64,000 bases of DNA from a bacterium (lineage in GTDB: Bacteria > CAIWAD01). The stretch lies in NCBI GenBank assembly GCA_030429345.1, contig JAUIFJ010000009.1, positions 62,001-126,000 of the forward strand. Reading direction: 5' to 3'. A program made the position numbers and the translations under genes. The notes beneath the pieces were generated by a model, which searched no databases, was not told the DNA's origin, and saw only the letters and a list, made by a program, of their open reading frames with translations. Numbering within the stretch: the first letter of the stretch is position 1; the number at the start of each line of letters is the position of its first letter. Of the stretch, positions 10,289 to 21,799 are shown piece by piece.

Positions 10289-10816
10289 CTAGCCGTCGAA
10301 ACGGGGCACCTTGCTGCCGCACTTGCGGACGAAGGTCAGGCCTTCGTAGGTCTCCCTGGGAATGGAGGGCCCGTCCGCGGCACAGTGCTCATTGAACAGG
10401 GTCACCAGCTTGCCGGCCACCTGTTCCGCCGTGCACTTCTCGATGTCCTGGCGGTGCAGGATGCCGGCCGGCTCGCCGTCCTTGAGCAGCACCATGCAGG
10501 GCGAACTGGGCGGCATGGGATGCATGTGCTGGCGGAAACGGTCGACAGCGCCTTTTTCCATGCCGGCGAAAATGGCTTCCATGCGGTCGGGAATGCGCTC
10601 GTTCTGCAGGGCCAGGGCGGCTCCCGGGCGAGCATTGCCGGCCGCGCAGCCGCAAACGCTGTTCAGCATGATCAACGTGGTGCCGCTCTTCTCGGCGAAG
10701 GTCTTGTCCACGTCCTCGGCACTCAGCAGATCGCGGAAACCGACGGCGCGCAGCTCTTCGCGCATGGGCTCGACAGCGACCGGATCGTAGTTGGGTGTAT
10801 CCATTGTAATCATCAT
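10289..10816 (-). CDS. BrxA/BrxB (YphP/YqiW) family bacilliredoxin
   Basis: LNSVCGCAAGNARPG CGC redox motif and PPSSPCMVLLKDGEPAGILHRQDIE. Confidence 0.9.
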   Translation of the reverse strand: MMITMDTPNYDPVAVEPMREELRAVGFRDLLSAEDVDKTFAEKSGTTLIMLNSVCGCAAGNARPGAALALQNERIPDRMEAIFAGMEKGAVDRFRQHMHPMPPSSPCMVLLKDGEPAGILHRQDIEKCTAEQVAGKLVTLFNEHCAADGPSIPRETYEGLTFVRKCGSKVPRFDG

Positions 10817-11143: not shown

Positions 11144-13375
11144 ATGAGGAAAGCCATGATCGACGTGCTGAATCGCCTGAGTTCCGAAGATTCCACCCGG
11201 AACGGTTCCGAGGAAGTCCTCGACTTCGCCGCCTACCTGGACCTGGTCCGGCGAGAACCCTGGATCACGCGCAATACCTCGCAGCTCCTGCATGACATGA
11301 TCCTGCGCAGCGGGGTGGAGCACAGCATCCAGCCCGGCAAACCGGTCACACATCGCTACGAGTTCTTCGATGACGGCGGACAGGTCGGCCCCTATGTGGT
11401 CTTCGGCCAGCAGAAGGCCAAGGAGAACCTGGTCGAGAAATTCGACAACGCCAGCCGGGGCGCCGAAGCGGCGAAACGCCTCTGGATCCTGCTCGGCCCT
11501 CCCGGCAGCGCCAAGTCCCGCTCGATGGACGGCATCAAGACCGCGCTCAACCGCTACAGCGCCTCGGAAGAGGGCAAGACCTTCACCCTGCTGCTGCCCA
11601 CCGTCGACGAGCGCCTGAAAGACCGCGCGCTCTTCGAGGAGAACGGCGTGTACTACCTGCAGAGCCCGATCTTCGAGCGCCCGCTGCAGGCCGTCCCGCT
11701 GGAACAGCGCGCCGCCTTCAGCGCCGCGCTCAACGACAAGCTCGACGAGGACAGCGTGCGGGGCTTCCTCGCCGACCATCCGCACTACGACGACATCTTC
11801 CGTGTGACAATCGACGGACGCATCTCGCCCTACAGCGAGTTCGTGATGCGCCAGTTCGTCAGGGACCGCGACCTGGGTCCCGGCGAGATCTACAAGTACC
11901 TCAAGGTGCGGCGGATGATCTTCGACCCGAGCACCAAGAACGGCATCGGCTCGTATACGCCCCGCGACGAGAAGAGCCAGGAGGCGGGCTCGCTGGTCGG
12001 CAACATCGACTACAGCCTGCTGCCGCGCTTCGGCAGCGAGAGCCATCCGCTGGTCCACGACTACAAGGGCGAGCTCTGCGCCGGGGCCAACGGCTTCGTC
12101 GAGATCCACGAGATCCTCAAGCTGAGCGACAAGTTCCTCTACGAGCTGCTCTTTGCCACACAGGACCGCTTCTTCAAGCCGGAAGGCCAGGCCCCGATCC
12201 CCTTCAACGGCGTGATCATCGGTCACACGAACTTCCACGAATACAACATGTTCCAGGAGAACCGCAGCTTCGAGGCCCTGCGCAGCCGCACGACCTTCAT
12301 CGAGATGCCGCTTTCCGTGAACTTCAAGGAAGAGGAACGGATCTACAGCCACACCTACTCCAACGAGGGGCGGGAGTGGCACAAGGGCCGGCGCCACCAG
12401 GCGCACGTGGCCCCGCACAGCCTGCAGCTGCTGAGCCTGGTCGCCGCCATGTCGCGGCTGTATGCCAGCAAGCAGAACCCCAACCTGAGCCTGCTGCAGA
12501 AGGCGCTGATCTACGCCGGCCGCGCCGACAGCGGCGTGGACAACAACATGGCCAAGGTGGTCCTGGACGAGTTCCAGTTCGTCAAGCCCAGCGAGGGCAC
12601 CTTCGGCCTGGATCCGCGCTTCATCCAGAACGTCTTCGAGAAGACCGAGCACTTCCAGATCAGCGAGTACGCCGCCAACATCCAGAAGCTGCAGGCGGAG
12701 AACGGCGACCAGGCGATGATGGCCTCGATCGCCCTGCAGAATCCCTGCGTCTCGCCGCTGGACCTCTACGTCAGCGCCGAGAACATGCTCAAGGAGTCCT
12801 ACGCCGCGCAGAAGACCACGCTGAGCCACTACGTCGAGCGCATCCTGCCCCAGGCCAAGAACTGGATCTTCGGGCAGATCGCCAGCGATGTATACAGCGC
12901 CATCCTGCGCGACGACAGCGTGATCGAGACGACCTGGAAGAAGTATACGGACCACGTCCGCGCATACGCGCACAACACGACCGTCAAGCATGATGTGACA
13001 CAGGCCGACGCCCAGCCCGACGAGAAGTTCATGCAGACCATCGAGCAGTACCTGGGCGTGCCCGAAAAGGACGTCTTCCGCAAGGAGCTCTCCGACGCCA
13101 TCGCCAGCGTGAGCCACCGCGTGCTGCTTTCCGACGAGCCCAGCTACCAGAGCGCCATCAAGCGCTATGTCTTCGAGAACGAGTTCAAGTCCGGCGAGAA
13201 CATGAAGCTGCTGGGCTGGATCAAGAGCGGCACCAGCCAGGCCAATGTCAACTCGAAGGAGCAGGAGCAGCTCAACGCGACCGTCAAGTACCTGATGGAC
13301 ACGAAAGGCTATTGCGGCAAGTGCGCCTTCCAGGCGCTGACGATTACCGCCAATGCCTCGAGCATCGTGATCTAG
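11144..13375 (+). CDS. prkA: PrkA family serine protein kinase / AAA+ protein, paralogue 1 (start may be ATG at 11156)
   Basis: EPWITRNTSQLLHDMI, Walker A GPPGSAKS, YeaG/PrkA-like architecture; neighbours are yeaH and spoVR. Confidence 0.92.
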   Translation: MRKAMIDVLNRLSSEDSTRNGSEEVLDFAAYLDLVRREPWITRNTSQLLHDMILRSGVEHSIQPGKPVTHRYEFFDDGGQVGPYVVFGQQKAKENLVEKFDNASRGAEAAKRLWILLGPPGSAKSRSMDGIKTALNRYSASEEGKTFTLLLPTVDERLKDRALFEENGVYYLQSPIFERPLQAVPLEQRAAFSAALNDKLDEDSVRGFLADHPHYDDIFRVTIDGRISPYSEFVMRQFVRDRDLGPGEIYKYLKVRRMIFDPSTKNGIGSYTPRDEKSQEAGSLVGNIDYSLLPRFGSESHPLVHDYKGELCAGANGFVEIHEILKLSDKFLYELLFATQDRFFKPEGQAPIPFNGVIIGHTNFHEYNMFQENRSFEALRSRTTFIEMPLSVNFKEEERIYSHTYSNEGREWHKGRRHQAHVAPHSLQLLSLVAAMSRLYASKQNPNLSLLQKALIYAGRADSGVDNNMAKVVLDEFQFVKPSEGTFGLDPRFIQNVFEKTEHFQISEYAANIQKLQAENGDQAMMASIALQNPCVSPLDLYVSAENMLKESYAAQKTTLSHYVERILPQAKNWIFGQIASDVYSAILRDDSVIETTWKKYTDHVRAYAHNTTVKHDVTQADAQPDEKFMQTIEQYLGVPEKDVFRKELSDAIASVSHRVLLSDEPSYQSAIKRYVFENEFKSGENMKLLGWIKSGTSQANVNSKEQEQLNATVKYLMDTKGYCGKCAFQALTITANASSIVI

Positions 13376-13388
13376 GAAGGCGTGAGGC

Positions 13389-14444
13389 ATGGCTGACCGC
13401 ATCAACAGCAACGAGTCCGAGGGCGCCTTCAACGAGTTCATCGAGGATCGCCTCGAGGACCTGGTGGAGAACATCCTCAACGACGGCAATCTGGATACCC
13501 GCGGCAGCGAGGTGATTGTCGACATGGAGGACATCCAGCCTCCGACCTTCAGCTACGGCGACGGCGGCCAGGGCGGCGGCAAGGGCCAGGGGCCCGGCGC
13601 CGACGGCGAGCAGATCAGTTTCGGCCTGCCCTTCGACCAGCTGATGGAGCTGGTGGCGAAGAAACTCAACCTGCCGGACCTTGTGAAACAGGGCCAGGGC
13701 CGGATCAAGGAAGTGTCCTACGAGTTCAAGACCTTCGGCACCACCGGCGTGATCCTCGACAAGAAACGCACCTTCCGCCGCGCCCTGCGCAGCAGCATCG
13801 GCATGGGCAGCTACTCCCCGGAAGAGGAGAAGTACGACGTCCTGATCCGCCGGCGCGACCGCCGCTTCAAGCTGCCCGAGCGGGTCGAGAAGCCGCGCTT
13901 CCGCGCTGTCGTGTTCTACATGGGCGACATCTCCTACTCGACCTGGGGCGAACGCCTGGAGCTCGAGAAGCGCCTGGTCCAGTTCATCCACCACTGGCTG
14001 GACTGGAACTACGGGCCGGGAAACGTGGAACACCGCTTCTTCGTACACGACGCCGAGGCCTACGAGGTGCAGGCCGAGCAGTTCTACAACGTGAGCAATG
14101 CCGGCGGCACTCGGGCCTCGATCGTCTTCGACCTGGTCTCCAACGTGGCCTTCAACGAGTACGACACGGAATCGACCAACTTCTACGGCTTCTACTTCGG
14201 CGACGGCGAGCTCTTCGACGACGACGCGCGGGAGATCACCTCGATCCTCGAAGAGCGCATGCGTCCCTCCTTCAACCGCATCGGCCTCGTCGAGGTCAAG
14301 CCCAGCCGCGCCAGCCACCTGAACAAGCTGGTCGGCGAGACCTTCGCCAACGACCGCGTGATCCGCCTGTGCGACATCCGCGAGAAGAACCAGACGGTGG
14401 AGGTGATCAAGAAGCTCTTCGGAGGCGCCCGTGCGGAGCACTAG
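13389..14444 (+). CDS. yeaH: DUF444/YeaH family protein with vWA-like MIDAS
   Basis: YeaH-like; VVFYMGDISYSTWGE (DxSxS), SNAGGTRAS. Confidence 0.9.
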   Translation: MADRINSNESEGAFNEFIEDRLEDLVENILNDGNLDTRGSEVIVDMEDIQPPTFSYGDGGQGGGKGQGPGADGEQISFGLPFDQLMELVAKKLNLPDLVKQGQGRIKEVSYEFKTFGTTGVILDKKRTFRRALRSSIGMGSYSPEEEKYDVLIRRRDRRFKLPERVEKPRFRAVVFYMGDISYSTWGERLELEKRLVQFIHHWLDWNYGPGNVEHRFFVHDAEAYEVQAEQFYNVSNAGGTRASIVFDLVSNVAFNEYDTESTNFYGFYFGDGELFDDDAREITSILEERMRPSFNRIGLVEVKPSRASHLNKLVGETFANDRVIRLCDIREKNQTVEVIKKLFGGARAEH

Positions 14445-16053
14445 GACAGATCCCGCCATCTGGGAGCTCGAGCAGCGCATCAAGTACTGGGCCGACGAGT
14501 TCGGCCGCACGCTGCCGGAAATGCGCTTCTTCATTCTCGAGGGCATGGAATTCGCCTCGCTGCTCGAGAAGAAGGTCTACCCGGTCAGCCCGATCAACAT
14601 CTGGGAAGGCAAGAGCATGGTCTCGCGCCGCTACCGGATCCAGGAGGGACTGGAAAGCAGCATCTACTACGAGGTGGTGCAGACGGGGAACCCTTCCTAC
14701 GGCTACCTCAACGACACCAATTCGCCGATGATGCAGGCCTCCGTGATCGCCCATGTGGTCGGCCACTGCGAATTCAGCGAACTCAACGTGATGCACGACT
14801 CGGACGAGGACCGCACCGAGCGCGTGATGCACATCTGCCGCAAGGTCGACCTGGGCCGCCGGCAGATGGGCGACCTGCACTACACGCGCTACTGGAATGC
14901 CGCCGAATCCGTGATCGACCTGATCTCTCCCAACTCGCAGTACAACCTGGCGCGTTCGGTGGACACGGACGCGCACACGATGCGCGCCCAGGAGGACCCC
15001 GGGGAGGCCGAGGAGCGCGAAGGCCCCTACCGGCCCTTCGACTCGACCCTCGACGCGCTGATGGTGCTCGAGGATCGCCAGAGCGCCTTCGAGCGCGAAA
15101 TCCGCCAGCGCCAGAGGCAGGAGACCTTGAGCCGCCGCGGCTACAAGCTGCGCGCCCCCTGCCAGGACGTGCTGGGTTTCCTGCTGCACTATGCCCCGGC
15201 GACCCCGGGCGAGCAGAGCGTCCTGGAGTACATGTATACGACCCACAAGACCCACGACTTCGTGATCCGCACACAGATCATGAACGAGGGCTGGGCCATG
15301 TACTGGGAAAACGAGATCATGCACAAGCTCTTCGCCGAAAGGGCGGTGGGCGACATCATCGACTACTGCCGCGTCTTCGCCGGCGTGTGCTACCCGCGGC
15401 CCTGGTTCCAGCGCAATCCCTACCACCTGGGCTACAACATGTGGCAGCACATCAAGCAGCTCTACGCCGACGGCAAGGTCAGCCTGGAGTACGCGGAGGA
15501 AACGGATCTCGACCGAAGGAGCAGCTGGAAGAAGCCCGACGGCAGCGACCCGCTGAAGCACCTGGAACACCTTGTGCGCACGGTGACCGACTACGAACTC
15601 CTGCGTCGCTTCCTGACGCCGGAACTGATCCACGAGTTCCACCTGAACCGGCTGCACAAGCGGATGGCGCAGCGCATGGGCATCAACCCGCGCGATGTGG
15701 TACAGGAAGACGAGCAGCACGTCTGGCTCGACCCGGTGCCGGTGAAGAACGAGATGCTGAACTTCTTCACCCATTTCTACCGTCCGCGGATCTATCTCAT
15801 CGATACGGACTTCCAGGACGGCGGCCTGCTGCTCTTCCACCGCAACGACGGACGGAAGCTGCGCGAGGAGTGGATCAAGCCCACCCTGCGCAACCTGAAC
15901 ATGATCTGGAAAGCGCCGGTCGCGCTGATCTCCGGCACGACCCTCTACGGCTTCACCGCGAACACCTACAAGGAGACCGCCATTTCGGAAGTCTCCTTCG
16001 AGCAGGTCGCACAACGCCTGCAGCGCGACGAGAAGCCCTTCAACATCGGGTAA
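14431..16053 (+). CDS. spoVR: SpoVR/YcgB family protein (GTG start)
   Basis: GHCEFSELN, NEGWAMYWENEIMHKLF, RNPYHLGYNMWQHIKQ; overlaps yeaH 3' end. Confidence 0.95.
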   Translation: MRSTRTDPAIWELEQRIKYWADEFGRTLPEMRFFILEGMEFASLLEKKVYPVSPINIWEGKSMVSRRYRIQEGLESSIYYEVVQTGNPSYGYLNDTNSPMMQASVIAHVVGHCEFSELNVMHDSDEDRTERVMHICRKVDLGRRQMGDLHYTRYWNAAESVIDLISPNSQYNLARSVDTDAHTMRAQEDPGEAEEREGPYRPFDSTLDALMVLEDRQSAFEREIRQRQRQETLSRRGYKLRAPCQDVLGFLLHYAPATPGEQSVLEYMYTTHKTHDFVIRTQIMNEGWAMYWENEIMHKLFAERAVGDIIDYCRVFAGVCYPRPWFQRNPYHLGYNMWQHIKQLYADGKVSLEYAEETDLDRRSSWKKPDGSDPLKHLEHLVRTVTDYELLRRFLTPELIHEFHLNRLHKRMAQRMGINPRDVVQEDEQHVWLDPVPVKNEMLNFFTHFYRPRIYLIDTDFQDGGLLLFHRNDGRKLREEWIKPTLRNLNMIWKAPVALISGTTLYGFTANTYKETAISEVSFEQVAQRLQRDEKPFNIG

Positions 16054-16055
16054 CC

Positions 16056-18548
16056 ATGAGCGAACGCTTCGACGCGCGGGATGTCCTGCGCTACTACCGC
16101 AAGAAGACCATGCGCTTTTCGGCCTTCGTCGACCTGCTGATCGAGAAGCCGGAAGACGTGCTGGTAACCAGCTCGCAGCTGATCGACAACGCCATCGGCC
16201 ATTTCGGCTTCGACGTTGTCGTACGCTCGGGCGAGCCGGTGGTCAGCTACCGCATCTTCAAGGACCTCTTCTCCGGCGGCGTCAATGCCGTCTTCGGCCA
16301 GGAATTCTGCATCAAGAACATCGTCGAGGTGATCGAGTCGGTGGGCAAGGAAAGCGGCCCCAACCGCGGCCTCGTGCTCGTCGGTCCGCCGGCCTCCGGC
16401 AAGACCAACATCGTCGACCTGATCTCGATGGCGCTCGAGGAGTACACGAAGGAAAAGGACGTTCACCTCTACACTTTCTTCTTCGAGTTTCCCGGCGACG
16501 ACGGCAATGTGGTCGAGCTGCGGACGAACTTCATCCACAATCCGGTGCTGCTCTTCCCGACACTGCTCAATCGCGAGGAGGGCATTACGCACCCTCGGCA
16601 GCAGCTCTTCGAGCACATCAACGCGCGCCGCACGGAGGACACGCGCTTCCAGGTGCCGACCTTCTTCCAGAATGCCTTCCTGGACAAGCGCAGCTTCGAC
16701 ATCCTCGAGGACCTGCTGCACAACCCGCGCAACGAGGGCAAGTCCTTCTACGACATCATCGAGGAATACGTCCGCGTCGAGGAGATCGAGTTCAGCAACG
16801 CCCAGGCCCAGGGCATTGCCAACATCGACGACATGAACCAGCTGCGCAGCCACATCCGTCCCGTCGAGCTCGGGCGCGAAGCCATGGAGATTGTATCACG
16901 TCACCTGAGCAGCTCCCGCGTATACCAGTACCAGGGCGCGATCGTCAGCTCGAACCGCGGCCTGCTGCACATCCACGACGCCTTCGGCCAGGGAGGGCCG
17001 CAGGCGGAGATGGAGTACAAGCCGCTGCTGATGCTGCTCGGATCGGGCCGCGTCAGCTCCGAGTCCACGCAGACGCCGATCGACAACACGGTGATCGTCA
17101 CGACCAACATCGACGAGATGGAACTGCTCGAGAAGCAGCTCACCTCCAGCAAGCTGATGGACCGCATCCAGAAGATCCCGGTCAACTACCTGCTGGACAC
17201 CAACTCGGAAATGGACATCCTCAAGCGCGACATGAGCGTGATGCGCGAGAAGTACGACATGGATCCGAACCTGCTCAGGATCGCCGCGTACTACAGCGTG
17301 ATGACGCGGTTGCGCCCCCCGCGCCGCAGCCAGTTCCCGCCCCAGTGGTCGGAAGAGAAGCAGCAGCTCTACCGCTCGATCACGCCAGAACAGAAGCTCT
17401 TCATCTTCAGCCACCAGTCGGAGGATCCGGTCAACACGATCCGGCGCCTGCCCCACTGGCACCCCTTCCGCAACGAGGCCCTGCGCCTGGGCCTCGACAT
17501 CCACGACACGGAGAAGCTCCAGGAACGGATCGTGCGCCATCCGGCCTCGATCTCGCTGGAGGAGTCGGGTCTCTTCACTCGGGACCAGCTCAAGCTGATC
17601 GACGATGCCTTCATGCGCGAGTTGTGGAACGAGCACTATCCCGACGAGGGCAAGTCGGGCATCAGCATTCGCCAGCTGCAGAACATCATGCGCTCGACCA
17701 TCGCCGCCAGCGACGGGCGCAAGGTGCATGTGGGGACCTTCCTCAGCATCATGCTGCGCACGCTGCAGGAGGGCGCGGGGCTGCATCACTGGATGGCCGA
17801 CAGCCACGGCGGTCCCGACGAGCTCCCGATCCCGGCCCGCCAGGTCGGCGGCCTGGAGTTCCTGGAGGGCGAGGGCGACTATCATGATTTCTCCGGCCTG
17901 CTGAAGGTCGTGCGGGCCTTGTACTACAACATCATCCGCAAGGAGATCACGGTGGCCCTGGTCGACCGGGACCCGGAGCAGATCGAGCTCGACCTGCGCC
18001 GCTACATCCAGCACTGCCTGCTGGCCCTGGCCAACGACAACAAGGCCTTCTCGCACATCATGGTGCCGCGCTTCACCTTCATCGACCCGGGAAGCGGCAT
18101 GAAGGTCGATCGCCCGGACATGAACTACATGGCCAGCGTCGAGAAGGTCATTTCGACCAGCGAAGGCGCGGTGACCTTCCGCCGCAAGGTGGCCGAGAAG
18201 TTTCTCGACCTGCAGAACTCGGGGGAACTGGGCATTCCGCAGGACAAGACCGCCGTCACGTCGCGCCAGGACAACCTGCTGGCCTGTTTCGCGCGCGAGT
18301 ATACGACCATGCTGTCTCACCGCAAGTCGGCGGAAGACATCAACGTGACGGAGCTGGAAGAGGCCTTCTACCAGAAGCGCAACGCCCCGGCCAAGTACCA
18401 GGGCTACGCCTCGAAGGTGCGCAACATGGTCGAGTCCGTCCTGGACAACATGGTGGTGCGCTACCACTACAGCCGCAAGATCGCCCTGGACACGGTGGTC
18501 TTCGCCCTGCGCAAGGAGATCGTCGACCTGGGCGACATCATCAGCTAG
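16056..18548 (+). CDS. PrkA family serine protein kinase / AAA+ protein, paralogue 2
   Basis: MSERFDARDVLRYYRKKTMRFSAFVDLLIEKPEDVLVTSSQLI..., Walker A GPPASGKT; 830 aa; starts 2 nt after spoVR stop. Confidence 0.9.
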   Translation: MSERFDARDVLRYYRKKTMRFSAFVDLLIEKPEDVLVTSSQLIDNAIGHFGFDVVVRSGEPVVSYRIFKDLFSGGVNAVFGQEFCIKNIVEVIESVGKESGPNRGLVLVGPPASGKTNIVDLISMALEEYTKEKDVHLYTFFFEFPGDDGNVVELRTNFIHNPVLLFPTLLNREEGITHPRQQLFEHINARRTEDTRFQVPTFFQNAFLDKRSFDILEDLLHNPRNEGKSFYDIIEEYVRVEEIEFSNAQAQGIANIDDMNQLRSHIRPVELGREAMEIVSRHLSSSRVYQYQGAIVSSNRGLLHIHDAFGQGGPQAEMEYKPLLMLLGSGRVSSESTQTPIDNTVIVTTNIDEMELLEKQLTSSKLMDRIQKIPVNYLLDTNSEMDILKRDMSVMREKYDMDPNLLRIAAYYSVMTRLRPPRRSQFPPQWSEEKQQLYRSITPEQKLFIFSHQSEDPVNTIRRLPHWHPFRNEALRLGLDIHDTEKLQERIVRHPASISLEESGLFTRDQLKLIDDAFMRELWNEHYPDEGKSGISIRQLQNIMRSTIAASDGRKVHVGTFLSIMLRTLQEGAGLHHWMADSHGGPDELPIPARQVGGLEFLEGEGDYHDFSGLLKVVRALYYNIIRKEITVALVDRDPEQIELDLRRYIQHCLLALANDNKAFSHIMVPRFTFIDPGSGMKVDRPDMNYMASVEKVISTSEGAVTFRRKVAEKFLDLQNSGELGIPQDKTAVTSRQDNLLACFAREYTTMLSHRKSAEDINVTELEEAFYQKRNAPAKYQGYASKVRNMVESVLDNMVVRYHYSRKIALDTVVFALRKEIVDLGDIIS

Positions 18549-18600
18549 CGCCCGTCCCCTCCTCCGGCGCGCTCGTGATCCAGACAGGGGGTACGGGCGC
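18548..18600 (+). repeat. Inverted repeat immediately 3' of prkA-2 (possible RNA hairpin/terminator)
   Basis: GCGCCCGT (18548-18555) / ACGGGCGC (18593-18600), plus CCCC/GGGG inside. Confidence 0.4.
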
Positions 18601-18736
18601 AACCCTCTTCGCCGCGAACCGGACCTGGACACCGGTGCAGCGGGCTTTCTCCATCAGGTCTTCCGTGCATGTAGTATCCTTGGGACGACACACGAAAAGC
18701 CTTCCTCGGCCTGACTCACGAACCGAAAGCGGATTC

Positions 18737-19237
18737 ATGGACTCCCTGCAAATCGTACTCGTTCCCGCGAAAGAGGATGTCCGTCGCTGGAAAGCGGTCC
18801 CCCTGCTGCTTCGAAAGGGCTCCCGGGGGATCGAACTGCTCGCTTTCGAACATCCGCTGGCAGGGCGGCAGCTGGTCAAGGGCGGACTCAAGAAGGGCGA
18901 AAGCCTGTGCGCGGCCGCCCTGCGGGAACTGCAGGAAGAGTCCGGTATTCGCGGCGATGTATACAGAGAAATCGGCTGGTGGGAATCCGGCTACAGGGGA
19001 CAATTATGGGGCTTCTGCCGGGTCGAAACTCCCAAAGGACTGCCGGATCGCTGGAAGTACTACACCAAGGATGGCGGAGGACTCTGGTTCCACTTCTTCT
19101 GGCAACGGCTGGAAGGGGACCTGAAAGGGGACTGGCACCCGGTCTACAGGCGAGCGATCAAACGCGTCAAGAACTTGTGGCGTGAGGGATTGCTCGACTC
19201 GAAAGCCGATGCAGGCCCGTCCTTTATCGATCCCTAG
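18737..19237 (+). CDS. NUDIX hydrolase
   Basis: GGLKKGESLCAAALRELQEESGI Nudix box. Confidence 0.88.
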   Translation: MDSLQIVLVPAKEDVRRWKAVPLLLRKGSRGIELLAFEHPLAGRQLVKGGLKKGESLCAAALRELQEESGIRGDVYREIGWWESGYRGQLWGFCRVETPKGLPDRWKYYTKDGGGLWFHFFWQRLEGDLKGDWHPVYRRAIKRVKNLWREGLLDSKADAGPSFIDP

Positions 19238-20181
19238 GAGCGGATTGTGATCAGTTCTTCCAGTACCTGCAGCGTTGTTTCGGCGTCCGGCAGAATGCGC
19301 GCCTGGACCGCCATCAGGGTTTGTTCGTAGCTCAATGCGCCTGCCCCGCCCACCAGAAGCAGACGTTCTCCGCGGAGGCGCTCGCCCAGGTCCCGCAACT
19401 GGCGATGCGTAGCCGGATCGTCTTCCGGATAGACCAGACTGAGGCCCACCATGTCGGCGCGATACTGCCTCGCCGCGTGTTCGATATCCATCGCCGGCAG
19501 GTCCGGCCCCAGGTAGAGCACATTGTAGCCCACCGAGACGGCAACCGTCGCCGCCAGGATTGCGCCCAGTTCGTGTCGCTGGCCGGCCGGTGTCGTCACC
19601 AGTAGCCGCGGCGCTCCTTCTTTTTCCCGCTGATCCGCGATCAACCGGTTCAGCGCGTGGATCACGAGCGTGGAGGCCATGTGTTCGTGGTATGGGCGAA
19701 TGGAGCCGTTCTGCCACAACTCTCCGATGCGCAAGGCAAGCGGCGACAGCAGGCCGTGAATCAGTTCCGCGGCGCCCAGTCGAACCTGGGCCTGGCTGAC
19801 CACCGTCTGCAGGGCCTCCGGGTCCAGTTCCTTGACCGCTTTCAAGGCGGAGGACAGCATGCGGTCCGCCAGATTCACCGGCATTGGAGTCAGGGCAGGG
19901 CGTGAGACGCTTTCATCCTCGAGGATCATCTCTTCCAGCTGCTCCTTGTTCATGCGGGCAATATCCCCGATGCGGCGGCCATTCTGCGTGGCTCGCCGAA
20001 GAAGAAGCAGGTGCTCGATATCGTCGTCGGAATACAGGCGTCTTGCGGTGGGGGTCCGTTCTGGATCGACAAAGTCATAGCGTTTCTCCCAGACACGAAG
20101 GACTTCTGGAGTCAAGCCGGTGCGCAGGGCGACGACTTTGATGGGGTGACGCTTAGTTTGGCTGCTGGTGTCGTCAATCAT
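19234..20181 (-). CDS. carH: MerR-type HTH plus cobalamin-binding domain regulator (CarH/LitR-like B12 photoreceptor)
   Basis: N-terminal MerR HTH; WQNGSIRPYHEH (W-x9-EH) and HELGAILAATVAVSVGYNVLYLGPDLP B12-binding signature; divergent from photolyase. Confidence 0.9.
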   Translation of the reverse strand: MIDDTSSQTKRHPIKVVALRTGLTPEVLRVWEKRYDFVDPERTPTARRLYSDDDIEHLLLLRRATQNGRRIGDIARMNKEQLEEMILEDESVSRPALTPMPVNLADRMLSSALKAVKELDPEALQTVVSQAQVRLGAAELIHGLLSPLALRIGELWQNGSIRPYHEHMASTLVIHALNRLIADQREKEGAPRLLVTTPAGQRHELGAILAATVAVSVGYNVLYLGPDLPAMDIEHAARQYRADMVGLSLVYPEDDPATHRQLRDLGERLRGERLLLVGGAGALSYEQTLMAVQARILPDAETTLQVLEELITIRS

Positions 20182-20187
20182 GGCAGT

Positions 20188-20216
20188 AGAATATCTTTCT
20201 GTTCAGAAATTGTCAA
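20188..20216 (-). promoter_or_regulatory. Sigma70-like promoter for carH-like gene
   Basis: Minus strand TTGACA-N17-TATTCT; predicted TSS falls at or near the ATG. Confidence 0.7.
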
Positions 20217-20236
20217 GGCCAATCACCGAACATGGC

Positions 20237-20266
20237 TTGACAAATTCAATTTTGTTCACGTTTATT
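20237..20266 (+). promoter_or_regulatory. Sigma70-like promoter for photolyase operon
   Basis: TTGACA at 20237-20242, about 18 nt spacer, TTTATT -10-like element. Confidence 0.6.
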
Positions 20267-20275
20267 GTGAACAAA
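20251..20275. promoter_or_regulatory. Inverted repeat TTTGTTCAC-N7-GTGAACAAA, candidate CarH-like operator
   Basis: Perfect 9-bp arms overlapping the -10 of the photolyase promoter. Confidence 0.65.
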
Positions 20276-20332
20276 TCATAGACAAAAAATCCCATGCTCC
20301 CAGAGAACTGCAGACCGAAAGATGGACCGCAC

Positions 20333-21799
20333 ATGAAAAGCTTGCACTGGTTCCGGGCGGACCTGCGATTGCTGGACAACCCCGCGCTCACCCAGGCCTG
20401 CCGGGACGGCAGCAGGGGGGTGCATGCCGTGTTCTGCATTTCGCCGGAACAATGGATGAAGCACGACTGGGCGCCGGCCCGGGTCGACTTCCTGTTGCGG
20501 AACCTGAAGGATCTCTCTGCGAGGCTTGCACAACGGGGCATCCCCCTGCATGTGATCACAACCCGAAGCTTTGCCGATCAGCCCCGCTCCATCCTGCGCC
20601 TGATGCGCGAAACGGGCTGCCATGCCCTCTACGCCAACCGGGAATACGAATGGAACGAGGTCCGGCGCGACCGGCAGGTGCATCGACTGCTGAAGGACGA
20701 GGGCCTGCCCTGCCACTGGGTTCACGACCAGGTCCTGCGCGCTCCCGGAACCGTTCTCACGGGCAAGGGCGAGCCCTACACCGTGTACTCGCCCTTTCGC
20801 AGAAAAGTGATCGACTTCCTGCAGCAGGAAGACGGTGTGACGCCGCTCCCCGAGCCTGCCGGAGCTGCAGGCCCCGTGCGCGAGGGGGACCCGGTGCCCT
20901 CGCAGCTGCCGGGCTTCCACTGCCCCGAACACATTTCCCGCCTCTGGCCGGCCGGAGAGCGCACAGCGCTGGAGACCCTTGCATCCTGCCTGAAAGGAAA
21001 ACTCTCCGCATACAAGGAGGAGAGGGATTCCCCGGCGGCCGATGCGACCAGTCGCCTCTCTCCGGCCCTGGCACTGGGCCTGTTGTCCCCACGGGTCGTG
21101 CTGGATCGGGCCACGCGGGCAAACAGGGGCCTGTACCACAAAGGGAACCCGGGGCTGGACACCTGGATCAACCAGCTCCTCTGGAGGGAATTCTACCGCC
21201 ATGTGATGCATGGCTTCCCGCGCGTCAGCCGCAACCGCAGCTTCCGGCCGGAAGGAGAGTACATTCCCTGGCGCGACGCTCCCACAGAACTGGACGCCTG
21301 GCGGGAAGGCCGGACCGGCGTGCCGATCGTCGATGCCGGCATGCGCGAGCTGGCAGGAAGCGGCTGGATGCACAATCGCCTGCGAATGATCACGGCCATG
21401 TTCCTTAGCAAGAACCTGCTCATCGACTGGCGGGAGGGCGAAGCGCACTTCATGCGCCACCTGGTGGACGGGGACCTGGCGAACAACAACGGCGGCTGGC
21501 AGTGGTCGGCCTCCACCGGAACGGATGCCGCGCCCTACTTCCGCCTCTTCAATCCCTGGACGCAGGGCAAGCGCTTCGATCCCGAGGGGCGGTATACAAA
21601 AACCTGGCTTCCCGAACTGGCCGATGTGCCAGCGGAAGCGCTGCATGACCCGACCGCCCTGCAACTCTGCAGGCCCAAGGGATATCCGCCCCCCATCGTG
21701 GATCACAGCTTCTCCCGCGACCGCGCGATCCGTGTTTTCCGTCTGGCGCTGCAGCAGGGCAAGGAGCACAGCAAGCAGCGCGCAAAGGCAGGCGGATGA
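20333..21799 (+). CDS. phr: Deoxyribodipyrimidine photolyase
   Basis: MKSLHWFRADLRLLDNPALTQA...; TGWPIVDAGMREL-like TGVPIVDAGMREL, WRDFYR-like WREFYRHVM, WQWSASTGTDAAPYFRLFNP. Confidence 0.95.
   Translation: MKSLHWFRADLRLLDNPALTQACRDGSRGVHAVFCISPEQWMKHDWAPARVDFLLRNLKDLSARLAQRGIPLHVITTRSFADQPRSILRLMRETGCHALYANREYEWNEVRRDRQVHRLLKDEGLPCHWVHDQVLRAPGTVLTGKGEPYTVYSPFRRKVIDFLQQEDGVTPLPEPAGAAGPVREGDPVPSQLPGFHCPEHISRLWPAGERTALETLASCLKGKLSAYKEERDSPAADATSRLSPALALGLLSPRVVLDRATRANRGLYHKGNPGLDTWINQLLWREFYRHVMHGFPRVSRNRSFRPEGEYIPWRDAPTELDAWREGRTGVPIVDAGMRELAGSGWMHNRLRMITAMFLSKNLLIDWREGEAHFMRHLVDGDLANNNGGWQWSASTGTDAAPYFRLFNPWTQGKRFDPEGRYTKTWLPELADVPAEALHDPTALQLCRPKGYPPPIVDHSFSRDRAIRVFRLALQQGKEHSKQRAKAGG

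Follow-up and report, generated by a model that had tools for sequence, protein, structure and literature searches.

A conserved bacterial operon pairs two divergent PrkA proteins with DUF444 and SpoVR and may encode a two-component AAA+ machine

Gene organization of the operon and its surroundings

The window (the whole stretch of bacterial DNA analysed, 64,000 nucleotides) contains four genes on the plus strand in the order PrkA-A, DUF444, SpoVR, and PrkA-B (Table 1), whose junctions are, in this order, a 13-nt gap, a 14-nt overlap (DUF444/SpoVR), and a 2-nt gap. The open reading frames (ORFs) agree to the base with the coordinates, shared direction, and tight junctions described in an earlier note on this DNA. 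This arrangement is not a chance one, because it is conserved in 21 further genomes, and the operon is thus confirmed as a genuine four-gene unit. The 4.24 Mb genome that contains the window has only these two PrkA genes and one SpoVR gene, and a scan of three genomes of the same family detected no PrkA in any of them. A scan for sigma54-like promoters gave no excess above chance, and no plus-strand sigma70-like promoter was found upstream of prkA-A. The gene immediately upstream is divergent and encodes a Disulph_isomer (PF06491) family protein (cf. bacilliredoxins). Downstream of the operon are genes for a NUDIX protein, for a regulator of the MerR type that carries B12-binding domains, and, in divergent placement, for a DNA photolyase; this neighborhood is suggestive of a light-responsive B12 regulator.

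Table 1. The four operon genes and neighboring features, in window coordinates
Feature	Position	Strand	Length	Basis
Disulph_isomer family protein (divergent)	10289..10816	-		PF06491
PrkA-A	11144..13375	+	743 aa	ORF + Pfam PF08298 + PF06798
DUF444/YeaH-like vWA protein	13389..14444	+	351 aa	ORF + Pfam PF04285
SpoVR-like protein	14431..16053	+	540 aa, GTG start	ORF + Pfam PF04293
PrkA-B	16056..18548	+	830 aa	ORF + Pfam
NUDIX protein, MerR-type regulator, DNA photolyase	18575..21799			

Features of the four encoded proteins

Both outer genes encode proteins in which AAA_PrkA (PF08298) is followed by the PrkA C-terminal domain (PF06798) above the curated cut-offs (25 bits each), the arrangement that defines the PrkA family: the two domains score 172 and 113 bits in PrkA-A, and 61 and 63 bits in PrkA-B. 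Neither protein reaches the YeaG equivalog NF011999 of NCBIfam (124 and 24.6 bits, respectively; cut-off 576 bits), and neither matched the BchI/BchD or MoxR AAA+ models in Pfam and NCBIfam at E values up to 0.01. In the alignment, PrkA-A has the Walker A motif GPPGSAKS (K124), the Walker B motif GFVEIHE (E323), a sensor-1 GHTN, and a C-terminal CGKC; PrkA-B has the Walker A motif GPPASGKT (K116), the Walker B motif GLLHIHD (D308), and a sensor-1 TTN, and it retains the Arg that follows sensor 1. The earlier distinction of two PrkA proteins by size and Walker A motif is borne out by these data. The two proteins share 28% identity across 142 aligned residues; they are remote, ancient paralogues and not products of a recent duplication. 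PrkA-B is strongly diverged overall from other PrkA proteins. No relative of PrkA-B was found in plasmid sequences.

The solved structure nearest to PrkA-A is 9xip, entitled "Serine protein kinase" (E=2.8e-73); the PDB contains 30 chains of one PrkA in three entries. An AlphaFold2 model of PrkA-B built on a 3-sequence alignment had a mean pLDDT of 38 and was left out of the fold search. PrkA/YeaG, YeaH, and SpoVR are stress and sporulation proteins with a wide distribution, and published PrkA work concerns single proteins whose kinase or protease activity is disputed. The earlier note had termed the two proteins "PrkA-type AAA+ kinases"; the Pfam matches uphold the PrkA and AAA+ part of this description, whereas the kinase part is doubtful (PMC13001217). 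Under another reading, PrkA-A and PrkA-B would act as Ser/Thr protein kinases, with each other or SpoVR and DUF444 as substrates. This follows the historical annotation and one report that terms E. coli YeaG a eukaryote-like Ser/Thr kinase (PMC4664914); however, the kinase activity of Bacillus anthracis PrkA is negligible in vitro, as is its protease activity, and the C-terminal region lacks a kinase P-loop (PMC13001217). We therefore regard this reading as very improbable.

The DUF444 protein scores 138 bits in Pfam (cut-off 27) and 166 bits against its best NCBIfam equivalog (cut-off 388). It has an intact set of residues, DISYS (D180-S184), T241, and D272, that is invariant in three window-type copies and that we read as a putative MIDAS. 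A search of solved structures with this protein gave no match. The SpoVR-like protein scores 140 bits in Pfam (cut-off 27) and 76.6 bits against NCBIfam PRK11767 (cut-off 679); its HVxGH and NEGWA motifs are conserved, and its GTG start agrees with the alignment of homologues. Its matches among solved structures were short and to designed TIM barrels only, and were judged to be due to chance. The AlphaFold2 model of this protein (4 sequences) had a mean pLDDT of 44 and was likewise left out of the fold search. In B. subtilis, SpoVR crosslinks to RNA in vivo (PMC12456014).

Comparison with known PrkA systems

The first three genes of the window operon have the same order as the classical operon of Rhizobium etli, in which CH02817-CH02815 comprise prkA, a gene for a vWA protein, and spoVR (PMC3188799). 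The classical sets, such as yeaGH plus ycgB in E. coli and prkA/yhbH/spoVR in B. subtilis, have no second PrkA in the operon, whereas in 22/22 copies of the module described here a diverged PrkA is the fourth gene. The proteins themselves are also distant from the classical ones: identity between PrkA-A and classical PrkA is only about 25-29%, and none of the four window proteins comes near the NCBIfam equivalog cut-offs of the classical set.

Paired PrkA genes have a precedent, which the earlier note had mentioned and which proved to be real: in all haloarchaea sequenced by 2011, linked PrkA pairs occur with DUF444 and SpoVR (PMC3102087). As in the window, two different PrkA genes are linked to DUF444 and SpoVR; however, as judged from the published description, the haloarchaeal PrkA genes are adjacent to each other, whereas in the bacterial window they flank the DUF444-SpoVR pair. 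Searches of the open-access literature, in which few subscription journals are covered, found no description of a bacterial four-gene module with outer PrkA genes or of the Glu/Asp division reported below. Thus, the pairing of PrkA with DUF444 and SpoVR was already known, while the Walker B regularity and the bacterial arrangement with outer PrkA genes may be new.

Distribution of the four-gene module

Including that of the window, we found 22 copies of the module with all four genes, and the order is A-DUF444-SpoVR-B in every one (22/22). Seven copies are of the window type, which spans at least three phyla and in which, where compared, PrkA-A is 74-77% and PrkA-B 55-63% identical; the remaining 15 form a second lineage that is highly divergent. 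PF06798 detected PrkA in 63 of the 383 genomes of a broad sample, mostly as one classical PrkA each. Besides the window's genome, this sample holds the divergent form of the module in G106, G309, and G174, in the last of which it is spread across two overlapping contigs. A scan for PrkA-B in one genome per species (85,462 species), which relies on exact short peptides and so misses diverged copies, returned two close relatives, both with the four-gene order: SMYC01000078.1, from an Acidobacteria metagenome-assembled genome (MAG), at 59%, and JAJRWL010000134.1, from a Gammaproteobacteria MAG, at 55%, where the start of PrkA-A is cut by the contig end. A search with a B profile found one further copy in Acidobacteriota (G582), and within the phylum of G309 a further search added three window-type copies (G1070, G1248, and G1271) and 12 complete copies of the divergent type. 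In G1282, the module is interrupted by a contig end. The earlier note had allowed for a phylogeny in which the second PrkA is a sporadic, unlinked, recent duplicate; the results ran against it, as the linkage is conserved and the paralogues are ancient.

A split module of the second type was seen in G1180 (L148 and L149), where PrkA-A and DUF444 are in one place and SpoVR and PrkA-B are at a contig end, with a detached C-terminal piece of PrkA-B near the former pair. This reflects either a rearrangement or a misassembly.

The four genes share a common history

In Acidobacteriota, the A-type and B-type profiles match the identical two of 347 genomes. Each of the four genes favors the same quartet tree, which groups the window with G582 against G383 with G384, and topology tests on the concatenated quartet alignment reject both alternatives (AU p 0.001 and 0.009). 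No flanking gene is common to the four window-type copies compared. Given that the gene trees agree while the flanks of these four copies differ, we conclude that the four genes are inherited together. Moreover, the quartet tree departs from the taxonomy, which would join the two Acidobacteriota; therefore, the four genes have probably moved jointly between phyla, with the caveat that MAG contigs may be misbinned. No extra PrkA was found in genomes with an unbroken module, so the module seems to substitute for the classical set in the genomes that carry it.

Walker B residues divide PrkA-A from PrkA-B

At the catalytic position of Walker B, all complete copies of PrkA-A have Glu (22/22) and all complete copies of PrkA-B have Asp (22/22), the position being assigned through alignment, not structure. 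Window-type and classical PrkA proteins do not have the usual preceding Asp. PrkA-A shares this Glu with every classical PrkA that is readable at the position. The PrkA-A proteins of the second lineage have a canonical DE (GGGIHFSDE), and the PrkA-B motif is GLLHIHD in the window type and NNGIYALMD in the second type. Across phyla, the B proteins retain three motif residues, namely the Lys of Walker A, the Asn of sensor 1, and the Arg that follows it, which argues that PrkA-B is not a decayed gene.

An active/impaired pair of subunits predicts a conserved Glu/Asp split, and the idea that the two PrkA proteins form a hetero-oligomer is thereby strengthened; together with the fixed four-gene order, the split suggests a mixed molecular machine. 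There are familiar parallels in BchI/BchD (magnesium chelatase), CbbQ/CbbO, and MoxR/vWA, in which an active AAA+ ring acts on a target protein together with a degenerate AAA+ subunit, a vWA adaptor, or both. These systems are analogous only in how they would work, as they belong to another AAA+ family and PrkA has a C-terminal domain of its own. On this model, to which we give about an even chance, the locus is a co-inherited set of four genes whose products make up a two-component AAA+ machine, in which PrkA-A hydrolyses ATP, PrkA-B is impaired, and DUF444 couples the pair to SpoVR. The Glu-type PrkA-A would be the ATP-hydrolysing subunit, and the Asp-type PrkA-B would bind ATP and hydrolyse it slowly or not at all, although Asp in place of Glu might still support catalysis. 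PrkA-B may join PrkA-A in a mixed ring, or serve as a regulatory or client-positioning subunit. The DUF444 protein, with its vWA/MIDAS features, would link the ring to its target as an adaptor, and SpoVR, as effector or client, would be what the machine remodels or delivers. By analogy to YeaG/PrkA, the machine may function in stress or the stationary phase. B. anthracis PrkA forms oligomers upon addition of ATP (PMC13001217).

The Walker B Asp of every module B, and the divergence of PrkA-B from other PrkA proteins, would also fit a paralogue without enzymatic activity that acts as a client or inhibitor by capping or blocking the ring of PrkA-A. However, the retention of Walker A, sensor 1, and the Arg across phyla is unexpected if nucleotide binding is irrelevant, and we consider this explanation unlikely.

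Asp-type PrkA proteins outside the module

Outside the module, a lone, diverged second PrkA, standing apart from DUF444 and SpoVR, occurs in 11 of the 383 genomes in addition to a classical PrkA, and it is Asp-type in 10 of the 11; the exception, L057 from G190, is on a long branch. These stand-alone proteins share the Walker B Asp with PrkA-B, but they differ in being unlinked to DUF444 and SpoVR and in usually having a classical PrkA elsewhere in the genome. In a tree calculated without the Walker B columns, from which L057 was excluded, the Asp-types are on one side of a branch (support 93/79; 94% of bootstrap trees). In a larger tree, window-type B joins the stand-alone Asp-types (95/95), the long branches of the second lineage come together, and the placement of second-lineage B is unsettled. 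Thus, a single change would account for the Asp-type on the smaller tree, while the larger one allows for two origins. Judged by these sequence comparisons, PrkA-B is a member of a wider "Asp-type" subfamily that is found mostly in genomes also holding a Glu-type.

The pairing has exceptions. Three Acidobacteriota genomes (L122, L123, and L124) have an Asp-type PrkA and no detected Glu-type, and the fragmented genome G1296, whose sole PrkA match is Asp-type by score (residue not read), is probably a further case. A strict rule that an Asp-type is always partnered by a Glu-type was therefore rejected: the pairing is a strong tendency, strict only within the module, and an Asp-type protein is not necessarily one half of a pair, because some occur without a detected Glu-type.

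These findings bear on an alternative in which one operon serves two machines: PrkA-A would work with DUF444 and SpoVR in the classical manner, while PrkA-B would form its own homo-oligomer on another client and be merely co-transcribed. The diverged, mostly Asp-type paralogues that lie away from DUF444 and SpoVR are in line with it, and the three Acidobacteriota genomes imply that Asp-types can act alone; on the other hand, within the module A and B are always together, with a fixed order and a shared history. We hold this alternative to be possible though doubtful. The two-component machine can also be extended, tentatively, to the whole family: PrkA would comprise two ancient subfamilies, a hydrolysing Glu-type and an ATP-holding Asp-type, which jointly form a heteromeric AAA+ motor, with the module as its hard-wired form and an unlinked Asp-type beside a classical PrkA as the same design in trans.

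Since it always combines an intact with an altered PrkA and encodes YeaH and SpoVR alongside, the module offers a self-contained four-protein set for reconstitution. The residues whose swap bears on the question of a mixed AAA+ ring are E323 and K124 of PrkA-A and D308 and K116 of PrkA-B.

Additional observations on PrkA proteins

The neighborhood of the Asp-type gene in L122, L123, and L124 is conserved and of a housekeeping kind (BamD-like protein, ribulose-phosphate epimerase, and ATP synthase A), and sensor 1 is altered in some of them. A C-terminal CxxC was weighed as a further hallmark of the Glu-type and dropped, as it is absent in 22 Glu-types and present in 4 Asp-types. A third divergent PrkA type (L060, L061, and L062) is Glu-type and single copy, with frames of 581-674 codons; it lies close to a SpoVR-like gene and, in one of the genomes, to a DUF444-like gene as well. 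Several genes for classical PrkA, with lengths of about 1058-1104 codons (L031, positions 1-2298, and also L021, L029, L033, L039, and L040), carry an apparent intein that interrupts the sensor-1 motif, with the junctions VGH/SVAGDTPI and NVVCHN/TNEPE. PrkA-like genes are also present in phage records H42-H55, from Thermus phages (phiYS40, TMA, phiLo, and others) and uncultured huge phages, where several are annotated as serine kinase.
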